From Chryseobacterium vaccae (GTDB taxonomy: Bacteria; Bacteroidota; Bacteroidia; Flavobacteriales; Weeksellaceae): 64,000 nt of DNA. Position 1 is the first letter of the stretch. Each line of letters begins with the position of its first letter. Shown here piece by piece: positions 21,256 to 39,683 of the stretch. Both the position numbers and the translations under genes were made by a program. The notes under the pieces are model-generated. The model was not told the DNA's origin and made no database searches. It saw nothing but the letters and a program-made list of their open reading frames with translations. The DNA is taken from the NCBI RefSeq assembly GCF_009602705.1, contig NZ_VSWH01000001.1, positions 1,798,001 to 1,862,000 of the forward strand, given 5' to 3'.

Positions 21256-22641
21256 TTATGCTTTTCTATATTTCTTTTTATTCTTCCAAGGTGCATTTTT
21301 ACCAACATCGCCAGCCATGATACATCCGTATGGCATCACCTCATCCAGTACTTCACACAATTCGTATTCCTCGATCTGTGCTCTTACATTTTTAGCACTT
21401 TTATAGGCACTTGGCAGCTCGGAAATATCAATTTCATTGGAGAAGAAACGGATATCAAGTCCTTTGGTTTCTTCTTCGAAAATTTCTTCCGTTGTCTTAT
21501 GGGCAAGAGATCTTTTATGCTGGCTTCTGCTAAAGTTTCTTCCGGCTCCATGCGGGGCAAATCCAAGGTTTCTTTCATTGGTTTTTCCCTGAACAATCAG
21601 TACCGGTTCTGCCATATTCAGCGGAATCAGTCTTGGTCCTGTAATATCCGGCATAAATTTATCATCCAGCGGAGTGGCTCCTTTAGCATGATAAAACAGA
21701 TCTCCATCCCTGAAAACGAAATTATGCTCGTTCCAATATCTGTTTTCTGTCTCAGTTTCCAGTTTGTTCAAAACCGCATCATGAATGGAAGTATGGTTTT
21801 CTTTCGTCCATTTTCTGATTAGCTGCAGGGCTTCCCAATATTCCTTACCTTCTTCGGTATCGTAAGGAATCCATGCGTTTTCTCTTAGTGTTTCAGGAGA
21901 AATTTCCAGTCTGAAACGGTTGGCCACCTTCATTCCTTTATCATATAATGCAGCCCCCGGAGCCCTGGAACCGTGATGGGTAACCAACATCGTATTTCCT
22001 GTATTTTTAGAAATTCCGACGAACAGAAAATGATTTCCGTCTCCCTGTGTTCCCATATGAGAACGGGCGATACTAATCAGTTTTTCATCATTCAAGAACT
22101 CATTTTCTCTGAAAGCATCCATCAGTTCCTGAGACATTGGCATCTGCTCTCCTCTCGGTCTTCCTCCATATCCGAAATGCGTCACGGAATGCGCGGCATC
22201 CAGCACTTCTTTAGGATCAGCTTTACCAAAATCCGTAAGCATTACAGAACAACAGATGTCCGCGCTATGGAATCCGGGATGAATCGCGTTTTTAGCGACA
22301 ACCACTCCTCCTACCGGGATCTGACCTTCAGGTCCTGTAGGACAGGCATCCGGCATAATAGCTCCTGCCGTTAATGTAGGCGTTTTCATCAGGACGTTCA
22401 TGGTTTTGATGACTTTCTCTACATTATCGTTCTCACTTTCATGTTCTGCTCTGATATTGATCACAAAATCTTTCGGTGCATCATGAAGCGGAATCAGGTC
22501 TGGCTGCTTAAACTGTTCCAGATATTGTTTGGTCTGGGTTTCATCCAGATTATTTTCATTGATATAAGCAATGGCCTCTTTAAACCATTTTGCTGGTCTA
22601 TACCCTAATTCAATCAGTTCGTTTCCTGTAATTGTATTCAT
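21256..22641 (-). CDS. rtcB: RtcB-family RNA ligase
   Basis: A 461-residue RtcB family RNA ligase. RtcB joins 2',3'-cyclic phosphate or 3'-phosphate ends to 5'-OH ends using GTP and Mn2+. Metal and active-site motifs are in order: [10 protein letters not shown] (residues 125-134), GTQGDGNHF (197-205), THHGSR (221-226), AKGATP (319-324) and [11 protein letters not shown] (364-374), whose His is the guanylylated residue in the family. The usual DIGCG motif is DICCS here, typical of a side branch of the family. The gene is transcribed from a special promoter at 22947-22983, through a tRNA-like RNA (22745-22936) and a 103-nt spacer. No archease or rtcA is in the window. Confidence 0.9.
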
Positions 22642-22744
22642 TTTATTTGGTTTTTAATTTTTCAGAGCCTTATCTGTCTTCATTTTTGGTTTTATTATCC
22701 TATTCAGGCAAAGCTGCTACAATTTATTGTTATTCATTTCTATG

Positions 22745-38650: not shown

Positions 38651-39683
38651 AAACCTTATTCTCCTTGAAACCATTTCCGGAAGCCGTGCTTTCGGATTAG
38701 CTACCGAAAACTCGGATACAGACATCCGGGGTGTTTATTATTTACCGAAGAAAGACTTTTTCGGACTGAATTATATTCCGCAGATTTCCAATGAAACCAA
38801 TGATATTACGTATTATGAAATCGGAAGGTTTGTAGAGCTGCTTCAAAAAAACAATCCCAATATTCTGGAAATTCTGGCAACGCCTGAAGATTGTATTCTG
38901 TATAAAGACCCGCTCATGGACCTTCTTCAGCCTGAAGACTTCCTGTCTAAATTATGCAAAGACACCTTTGCGGGTTACGCTATTTCACAGATCAAAAAGG
39001 CGAAAGGGCTCAATAAAAAGATTCTTAATCCTATTGAAAAAGAAAGAAAATCCATCCTTGATTTCTGCTTCATTCTTGAAGGAGAAGGCTCTGTTCCTCT
39101 GAAAAAATGGCTTGCGGAAAACCATCTGCTTCAGGAAAACTGCGGACTGACCAATATCGGAAATACCAAAGGAATGCACGCCCTGTTCTATGATGAATCC
39201 GGTAATTTGGACTATAAAGGAATTATCCAGCATGAAGAAGCCAACCAGGTTTCTCTTTCATCCGTTCCGAAAGGTGAAAATCCTAAAGCTTACCTCTTCT
39301 GCAATCTGGACTCCTACTCTACTTACTGCAAAGATTACAGGGAATACTGGAAATGGGTTTCCGAACGGAATGAAGACCGTTACAACGTTAATCAGCAGCA
39401 CGGACAAAATTACGACAGTAAAAATATGATGCATACCATCCGTCTGCTTCAGTCCTGCGAGCATATCTTTAAAACCGGAAACGTAAAGATCCGGGTAGAT
39501 AACCGGGATGAGCTCCTGGACATCAAAGCCGGAAATCAATCCTATGAAAGCGTGATGCAGAAAACAGAAAATCTGATCACTTCTATTGAACATTATTATT
39601 TAACATCCGGTCTTCCCGACTTTCCGGATCTGGAAAAAACAACGGATATTTTAATAGAAATCAGAGAGAAGTTATATCAATAA
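38625..39683 (+). CDS. RlaP-type nucleotidyltransferase, copy 2
   Basis: A 352-residue pol-beta-fold nucleotidyltransferase of PF10127. The motif GSRAFGLATENSDTDIRGVY is at residues 19-38, with catalytic Asp31 and Asp33. It is longer than copy 1 (250 residues) and only distantly related to it. The start is set at MTIQDLKNKN, inside the 3' end of the ATPase gene (26-bp overlap), so the two are translationally coupled. RNA-end repair is the family expectation; the substrate is unknown. Confidence 0.82.
   Translation: MTIQDLKNKNLILLETISGSRAFGLATENSDTDIRGVYYLPKKDFFGLNYIPQISNETNDITYYEIGRFVELLQKNNPNILEILATPEDCILYKDPLMDLLQPEDFLSKLCKDTFAGYAISQIKKAKGLNKKILNPIEKERKSILDFCFILEGEGSVPLKKWLAENHLLQENCGLTNIGNTKGMHALFYDESGNLDYKGIIQHEEANQVSLSSVPKGENPKAYLFCNLDSYSTYCKDYREYWKWVSERNEDRYNVNQQHGQNYDSKNMMHTIRLLQSCEHIFKTGNVKIRVDNRDELLDIKAGNQSYESVMQKTENLITSIEHYYLTSGLPDFPDLEKTTDILIEIREKLYQ

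Follow-up and report, generated by a model that had tools for sequence, protein, structure and literature searches.

The closest described counterpart of the system reported here is the Salmonella rsr-yrlBA-rtcBA operon with RtcR, which places Ro60, a tRNA-mimicking Y RNA, and RtcB under one regulator (PMC7790460). In YrlA, which mimics a tRNA in circularly permuted order (PDB 6CU1; PMC11472068), Rsr is held by the stem and PNPase is bound by the tRNA-like domain (PMC8394870). RtcB, RlaP, and TROVE with a tRNA-like partner have already been tied to RNA repair (PMC7824862), while WYL proteins repress several defence pathways (PMC11888443). Here we analyze a stretch of 64,000 nucleotides (nt) of Chryseobacterium vaccae (G000:C1:1798001-1862000, referred to as the window), part of a 5.1 Mb genome of two contigs (G000), which encodes rtcB, a TROVE protein, two RlaP proteins, and two tRNA-like RNAs. 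As in Salmonella, a Ro60, a tRNA-like Y-type RNA, and RtcB stand under one operator; unlike the Salmonella operon, the units are dispersed over several loci, the operator is linked to a WYL protein instead of RtcR, RlaP, prim-pol, R2K, and slipin are included, and there are two Ro60 paralogues.

These observations indicate that the window probably holds part of a dispersed regulon uniting RNA repair with Ro60 RNA surveillance, repressed by the WYL protein, in which a leader RNA (type B) is bound by the TROVE protein encoded behind it (TROVE1). At the level of sequence comparison, the following units are shown to have one double-hexamer operator: rtcB, an RlaP operon, TROVE1 with its leader RNA, a slipin gene with tRNA-like RNAs, and a second TROVE gene (TROVE2) with a Y array. 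The same comparison establishes the conservation of this operator, the co-occurrence of the genes, and the structures of the RNAs. We call the rtcB leader RNA type A, the slipin-linked RNA type C, and an RNA found 3' of rtcB type D. The three units of the window share an operator-promoter whose best form is TRCGYA-N7-TRCGYA-N10-TACTTTGC:

22947..22983, minus strand: operator-promoter 1, TGCGCA-N7-TGCGTA-N10-TACTTTGC
27782..27818, plus strand: operator-promoter 2, TGCGCA-N7-TACGCA-N10-TACTTTGC
32189..32225, plus strand: operator-promoter 3, TACGCA-N7-TGCGCA-N10-TACTTTGC

An initial annotation, made from the letters of the window, had proposed such a common operator-promoter for three units, and exact copies do lie at the three promoters. 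A search for TRCGYA-N10-TACTTTGC that allows up to two mismatches finds three places in the window, each an exact match; genome-wide there are four copies, three in the window, and none in the backward control. The window holds exactly three strict double hexamers, TRCGYA-N7-TRCGYA, each at the promoter of a unit (backward control, 0). Because 11 of 100 shuffles reach three or more matches at two mismatches, the weight of the motif rests on the three exact promoter copies and on the second hexamer 7 nt upstream. Placed by the Bacteroidetes promoter consensus, a TTG at around -33 is part of the inner hexamer, and therefore the operator overlaps the promoter.

Across 118 genomes of the genus, G000 included, the relaxed motif gives 315 matches vs 51 in the backward control. 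Eight genomes have no match; seven were opened at WYL and each carries a one-base variant before rtcB, and the eighth, G087, has no close rtcB orthologue. In 88 fetched loci there are 157 operator-promoters (second hexamer slightly relaxed; backward control, 0), a tally that is not independent, as the loci were mostly picked for operators, WYL, or TROVE. They precede rtcB (44), TROVE (34, given as a sum because the TROVE1 and TROVE2 labels cross-hit), RlaP (19), and slipin with T-arms (13); of the rest, 25 have T-arms but no query-set gene within 1.5 kb, 7 are turned toward HopJ, and 15 have neither T-arms nor such a gene. A chance motif is ruled out by the genome-wide count and by independent WYL loci in other families. 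On this evidence one operator design is conserved in the genus and the order. The initial annotation had staked its proposal on conservation of motif and gene linkage in related genomes, and both are conserved.

The third unit of the window pairs TROVE1 with the type B RNA:

32237..32370, plus strand: type B RNA, whose tRNA-like body keeps the natural tRNA order and has a Y-like arm replacing the anticodon arm; supported by covariation and found in the same 10 of 118 genomes as TROVE1
32378..32450, plus strand: second Y-like hairpin of the type B RNA, then a U run; the motif GTGTGA...GTTACTTCG is repeated here
32472..33848, plus strand: TROVE1 (Ro60/Rsr-like); Pfam TROVE E 1.7e-11, partial; solved TROVE proteins 9l5y and 9kop, E 2.8e-15

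In seven aligned leaders, type B comprises an acceptor stem of at least 8 bp, a D-arm, a long arm in the place of the anticodon arm, and a T-arm, followed on the 3' side by a second long hairpin, a U run, and then TROVE1. The order, with the D-arm first, the T-arm last, and an open acceptor, is supported by covariation: all 30 pairs form in every one of the seven sequences (100%), 8 of them with changes on both sides vs 2.7 in shuffles, and slide controls pair at 28–50%. A larger, model-fitted set (21 rows, 17 of type B and 4 lower-scoring) is 98.3% paired, with 13 double-side pairs vs 7.6 in shuffles. The acceptor and T helices stay paired through compensatory changes, and the D helix is nearly invariant. 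Of the 118 genomes, those that score 144–166 bits with the type B covariance model (R1) are exactly the 10 that have TROVE1, and no other exceeds 74 bits; ordinary tRNAs reach ~53 bits. The 74-bit match is a relic in G104 (L193, G104:C2:81914), where the operator is intact, the RNA has decayed, an R2K gene comes next, and TROVE1 is missing. In a named collection, type B is present at 10 of 10 TROVE1 loci, including three from Elizabethkingia and one from Soonwooa (three of the ten are genomes already counted: G034, G086, and G091), and the double hexamer lies upstream at all ten, in L195 with one base changed. The nearest relatives of TROVE1 in this collection, each at 94%, are from Chryseobacterium indologenes CI_885 and a Chryseobacterium metagenome-assembled genome.

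Each type B leader carries the motif GTGYG-N-GTTACTTCG twice (17/17). The copy in the arm has its partner strand 5' and the copy in the second hairpin has it 3', therefore the same two-strand element occurs in both connectivities. The region 32150-32460 has no Rfam match up to E 1 and hence no match to RF02553 (YrlA). Neither of the two window RNAs is called by ARAGORN or Rfam, the Rfam tRNA model included, which rules out an ordinary tRNA identity. Like YrlA, type B is a tRNA-like module encoded beside a Ro60 (rsr/TROVE) gene, two of the features that mark a Y RNA; unlike YrlA, whose order is permuted (T-arm, acceptor hairpin, D-arm), it has the natural tRNA order, an open acceptor, and a Y-like element for the anticodon arm that is repeated in a second hairpin. 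Because it has no Rfam match and its order is not permuted, type B looks as if it acts like a Y RNA without being a YrlA. Supposed phage copies of type B were rejected, as the matches (20 of 25 covered) span 15–19% of the query and are tRNA-type sequence in the annotated records.

Type B could also be a cis-regulatory leader of TROVE1, its tRNA-like fold being read by RNase P/Z or by TROVE1 feedback, and not a free Y RNA. Its position fits this: type B sits directly before TROVE1 and in the same orientation in every TROVE1 genome examined, and it ends in a hairpin and U run ~20 nt before the likely start codon. However, it has two copies of a motif that is also found in Y-array units preceding no query-set gene, and its full acceptor stem covaries, so we consider a leader function in place of a free RNA unlikely. 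The two roles could both be true.

The second tRNA-like RNA of the window lies before rtcB:

22745..22936, minus strand: leader RNA of rtcB (type A), which joins a long, highly conserved branched insert to tRNA-like acceptor, D-arm, and T-arm elements

A blastn search of 254 fetched sequences, nearly all selected for regulon genes or operators, finds type A at 86–98% identity over 182–194 nt in ten other genomes. The resulting 11 genomes, two of them from another family, show three placements within regulon loci. It is in the rtcB leader in 5 of 49 loci that include the rtcB start and upstream region (G000, G034, G024, G103, and G137) and 3' of slipin in 4 of 19 (G064, G081, G119, and G132); in the other family it lies directly behind the operator near WYL (G176) or ~2 kb after TROVE2 (G161). 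The alignment has a mean column identity of 89%, and 7 of the 51 pairs of the consensus structure are changed on both sides, spread over the acceptor, the stem that follows the D-arm, and the insert's basal stem. Type A has no Rfam match up to E 1 and is absent from plasmid and phage collections, and its core is absent from viral contigs. Unlike YrlA, it combines natural order with an unrelated insert. By its alignment, type A is a second, separate, strongly conserved structured RNA, better conserved across families than its regulator protein, and a ready biochemical target. The initial annotation was borne out in listing rtcB, TROVE, two RlaP genes, and tRNA-like RNAs, as the proteins have Pfam matches and both RNAs covary in relatives; the Y-like nature of the TROVE leader, the separateness and conservation of the rtcB leader RNA, and the slipin and second-Ro60 loci go beyond it.

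At its fourth genomic copy (G000:C1:4238244), the motif stands before two tRNA-like modules in permuted order and a slipin gene. TROVE2, 34% identical to TROVE1, is encoded ~18 kb beyond this copy and is followed downstream by another double hexamer and an array of Y-like RNAs. In several relatives the gap between slipin and TROVE2 is ~2–3 kb; in G000 the interval from slipin to TROVE2 (G000:C1:4240463-4255134) contains type I restriction-like genes, as judged by eye, and several large unidentified genes. A small frame (L066:11680-11990; GINEYGLIDFP... GCS.CFPHGFE) lies downstream of TROVE2 and before the Y array in G000 and G081, with an in-frame stop in G000 (by eye). A pattern match finds 112 array units in 17 arrays, and in the 70 of these viewed the units run from an RRTGYCGT start through to [T]TACTTCG or close variants. 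Array units hold a form related to the GTGYG-N-GTTACTTCG motif of type B. Several TROVE2 array stretches and the slipin-linked RNA match Rfam YrlA below the cut-off and, like YrlA, in permuted order. Genus-wide, RF02553 has sub-cut-off matches in all 118 genomes and in 10 of 14 controls and none above the cut-off; these matches probably often come from neighbouring tRNA genes and, given the matches in controls, they were used at operator loci alone. Type C was rejected as a Ro60 ligand, as TTACTTCG is missing in 15 of 15 places with two T-arms.

One array unit (G000:C1:4258590-4258860, L066:12590-12860) includes 31 nt copied from the helix 69-71 region of 23S rRNA, at 97% identity to the 23S genes of the same genome (E 1.9e-7). 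The copy follows directly after the Ro-type motif, and such a copy stands in the same place in 9 of the 23 TROVE2 loci scanned, G000 counted (up to 3 edits).

Type D is an RNA of tRNA topology with a hairpin at the position of the anticodon loop (for example, L081:10950-11061). It comprises 53 matches to the type B model at 55–73 bits in 53 genomes of the genus; 52 are no more than 700 nt from the 3' side of rtcB and share its strand, and the remaining one adjoins the other part of a contig-split rtcB. In 15 sequences it is 99.5% paired, with 12 double-change cells vs 3.5. The type B model at E 1e-4 finds no type D in the window.

The regulon could be mainly an anti-phage or anti-toxin defence, with the tRNA-like and rRNA-like RNAs serving as decoys for anticodon nucleases and ribotoxins. 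This is consistent with the repression of several defence pathways by WYL proteins (PMC11888443), with the variable cargo between RlaP1 and TROVE1, and with the 9 of 23 Y arrays that hold a 23S helix-69 copy, and a decoy function has been voiced for YrlA (PMC7790460). Against it, PADLOC run on 10 proteins returns the WYL match and weak matches of the second ATPase (best E 5.5e-4) and nothing more, the tRNA-like RNAs are without the anticodon arm that is the usual target, and YrlA fragments went undetected in Salmonella (PMC7790460). We therefore doubt that defence is its main purpose. A joint reading that we put forward tentatively, as possible and short of probable, is that in Flavobacteriales one WYL-controlled regulon makes a library of adaptor RNAs, many combining a common Ro60-binding signature with different mimics of damage-prone RNA (permuted tRNA modules, a module of tRNA topology that is duplicated with its helix connectivity reversed, and the helix-69 region of 23S rRNA), type A doing likewise for RtcB or slipin. 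If so, every mimic would recruit an enzyme of its own for repair, modification, or decay, or would bait a different ribotoxin.

The candidate regulator is encoded divergently from rtcB:

21256..22641, minus strand: rtcB, RNA ligase; Pfam RtcB E 6.6e-35; close orthologue in 116 of 118 genus genomes
23021..23353, plus strand: HopJ-family gene upstream of WYL; Pfam HopJ 5e-49, a name that says nothing for an effector role of this gene
23397..24410, plus strand: WYL/WCX transcription regulator, the proposed regulator of the operator; PF13280 7.4e-11 (WYL), PF25583 3.4e-07 (WCX)

The presence of both WYL and WCX domains identifies the protein as a WYL regulator. Close orthologues of WYL (at least 74% identity) and of RtcB are both present in 116 of the 118 genus genomes and both absent from the other 2; a few of these genes are incomplete or broken (G021, G062, G079, and G086), and weaker paralogues are more widespread (WYL 118/118, RtcB 117/118). 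G087, which has no close WYL, retains an rtcB remnant of 35 residues with a stop. In 107 of 116 genomes WYL and rtcB diverge and are no more than 2.5 kb apart, and in the remaining 9 the distance is 4.5–24 kb. On plasmids WYL gives 19 records, every one below 60% identity. RtcR (PF06956) is found in none of the 118 genomes, G000 among them, with a positive E. coli control; RtcB, Ro60, and a Y-like RNA share one operator in dispersed units, and the RtcR of the rtcBA class is missing.

With WYL in 116 of 118 genomes, co-occurrence within the genus is weak proof of a regulator, and the test was therefore shifted to other families. There, 20 of the 21 WYL loci at 47–60% identity were fetched by protein alone (G270 and rows at 35–40% omitted; 274,723 nt in total). 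All 20 carry the strict double hexamer, with 35 sites vs 0 backward, at most 1.1 kb from WYL in 19 and 3.5 kb away in L234. Thirteen of the stretches hold TROVE2 (65–70%), slipin (34–62%), or RtcB, the last at 60–63% identity in L249 and L253 and 27–30% elsewhere. Because of its co-occurrence with RtcB, the absence of RtcR from every genus genome, and the operator at 20 of 20 other-family loci, the WYL protein very probably takes the place of RtcR, as the initial annotation had supposed, and comparative linkage suggests that it binds the double hexamer.

In the mechanism we propose, the WYL protein would sit on the operator, most likely as a repressor, and would release it on sensing a nucleic-acid product of damage or infection. 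RtcB would then seal breaks with 2',3'-cyclic-phosphate and 5'-OH ends, and RlaP and the prim-pol may put back nucleotides lost at the ends. TROVE1 is predicted to hold type B through the repeated GUGUGA...GUUACUUCG helices, and the tRNA-like body may recruit tRNA-acting enzymes to Ro60, act as a decoy, or serve as a processing mark; Ro60 with Y-like RNAs may sort damaged RNA or bring in such enzymes.

Several observations weigh against this reading. TROVE1 and type B are confined to 10 of 118 genus genomes, and we infer Ro60 binding from the shared GTTACTTCG motif. Type A, looked for in fetched loci, has in 22745-22946 no copy of the TTACTTCG motif that type B and the array units share. Seven of the 20 other-family stretches are without TROVE, slipin, and RtcB, and most RtcB matches there are paralogues at 27–30%. 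At 5 of 29 WYL loci the operator pattern is missing from the 1.5 kb around WYL: in L219 and L222 rtcB is preceded by a variant that differs in one base, and L221, L223, and L225 have none there, L225 having an operator site 3.5 kb from WYL. In G008 and G136 WYL lies apart from rtcB with no operator before HopJ-WYL, therefore autoregulation is not general. WYL could be merely a linked neighbour, and the double hexamer would then be bound by another, unlinked regulator. The two genomes just named are consistent with this, but an operator near WYL is kept beside TROVE2, slipin, or a distant RtcB at 20 of 20 other-family loci and close WYL and RtcB orthologues are jointly absent in 2 of 118 genomes, which makes an unlinked regulator quite improbable. 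An origin of the tRNA-like RNAs as chance passengers, tRNA genes that have decayed or hold an intron, is scarcely credible: their T-arm and D-arm sequences are tRNA-like and ordinary tRNAs do score with the type B model, but helices are maintained by compensatory changes, type B and TROVE1 co-occur perfectly, type A stays 86–98% identical across ~190 nt, conserved non-tRNA elements replace the anticodon arm, and the sole decayed type B found is where TROVE1 was lost (G104).

With WYL regulation of the repair and Ro60 genes as the preferred reading, the system resembles CapW, which like BrxR is a WYL repressor of a defence system, in that a WYL regulator stands over conflict genes; unlike CapW and BrxR, it would act in trans on RNA repair and Ro60 at several loci. 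Burroughs and Aravind 2016 reportedly placed prim-pol and Band-7/slipin with a tRNA-like RNA in RNA-repair neighbourhoods as well; that RNA could equal one seen here, and to our knowledge neither a shared operator nor a WYL regulator was described there. Among the matches listed in a literature search of titles and abstract openings, with subscription papers mostly outside, there is no WYL-controlled RtcB/Ro60 regulon, flavobacterial Y RNA, natural-topology Y-like RNA, type A RNA, or helix-69 copy. The WYL operator regulon, the natural-topology Y-like RNA, type A, and the helix-69 copy are candidate, unproved novelties, and several of the protein parts had earlier links to RNA repair. A known kind of RNA-repair/Ro60 system thereby gains a candidate regulator and new RNA partners. 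The finding bears on two questions, namely the role of bacterial Ro60 and Y RNA beside RNA-repair enzymes and the nature of the RNA-repair switch where RtcR is missing, and both become directly testable in culturable flavobacteria now that there are a defined operator, a candidate regulator, and families of covarying RNAs that have tRNA topology or mimic rRNA.

The remaining genes of the window that concern the regulon are as follows; the start codons at 27835, 32472 (TROVE), 33925, and 38625 are likely ones, based on homologues and context:

27835..28587, plus strand: RlaP1 nucleotidyltransferase; Pfam RlaP 7.7e-69; PHROG 14344, nucleotidyltransferase
28589..29263, plus strand: paralogue A; source label SMI1/KNR4 on one homologue
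29274..29903, plus strand: paralogue B; 35% identity to paralogue A
29918..30562, plus strand: protein of the variable cargo, without a Pfam, NCBIfam, PADLOC, or PHROGs match
30559..31290, plus strand: R2K-clade ATP-grasp; Pfam R2K_2 5.9e-33
33925..34635, plus strand: archaeo-eukaryotic-primase-like protein; archaeo-eukaryotic primase (AEP) fold with DxD and H motifs
34642..35055, plus strand: small protein without a Pfam or PHROGs match
35178..36416, plus strand: ATPase with a weak winged helix-turn-helix (wHTH) match and its own promoter region; ATPase_2 2.4e-4, below cut-off; TATCGTA repeats upstream
36392..38650, plus strand: ATPase with wHTH; HTH_27 7e-06; AAA matches below cut-offs
38625..39683, plus strand: RlaP2 nucleotidyltransferase; Pfam RlaP 1.4e-24; PHROG 388

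Variable cargo genes lie between RlaP1 and TROVE1. The paralogue pair had been correctly recognized in the initial annotation. So had the AEP-like gene: its fold is settled by VIA-align (Foldseek by itself is weak, its best match at E 7.5e-3 being an eIF4E), and with the DxD and H motifs it belongs to the archaeo-eukaryotic primase superfamily. The ATPases are doubtful as partners, since no operator copy lies directly before the pair; their promoter region differs from the shared operator and has an unrelated palindromic sequence, a further point against a regulon that includes them. The TATCGTA/TACGATA repeats that precede the pair (35112-35153) resemble the operator of another regulator, so the ATPases, and perhaps RlaP2, may be outside the regulon; RlaP2, downstream of them, could be read from either promoter. 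To call the unassigned genes new parts was likewise too strong, given this promoter region and the established RNA-repair links of RlaP and of TROVE with a tRNA-like partner (PMC7824862). RtcA has no Pfam match among 20 reading frames of the window, the search being limited to those frames and the genome not searched. An ordinary S15-Flavobacteria ribosomal protein leader lies farther along the window, at 55896-55941.

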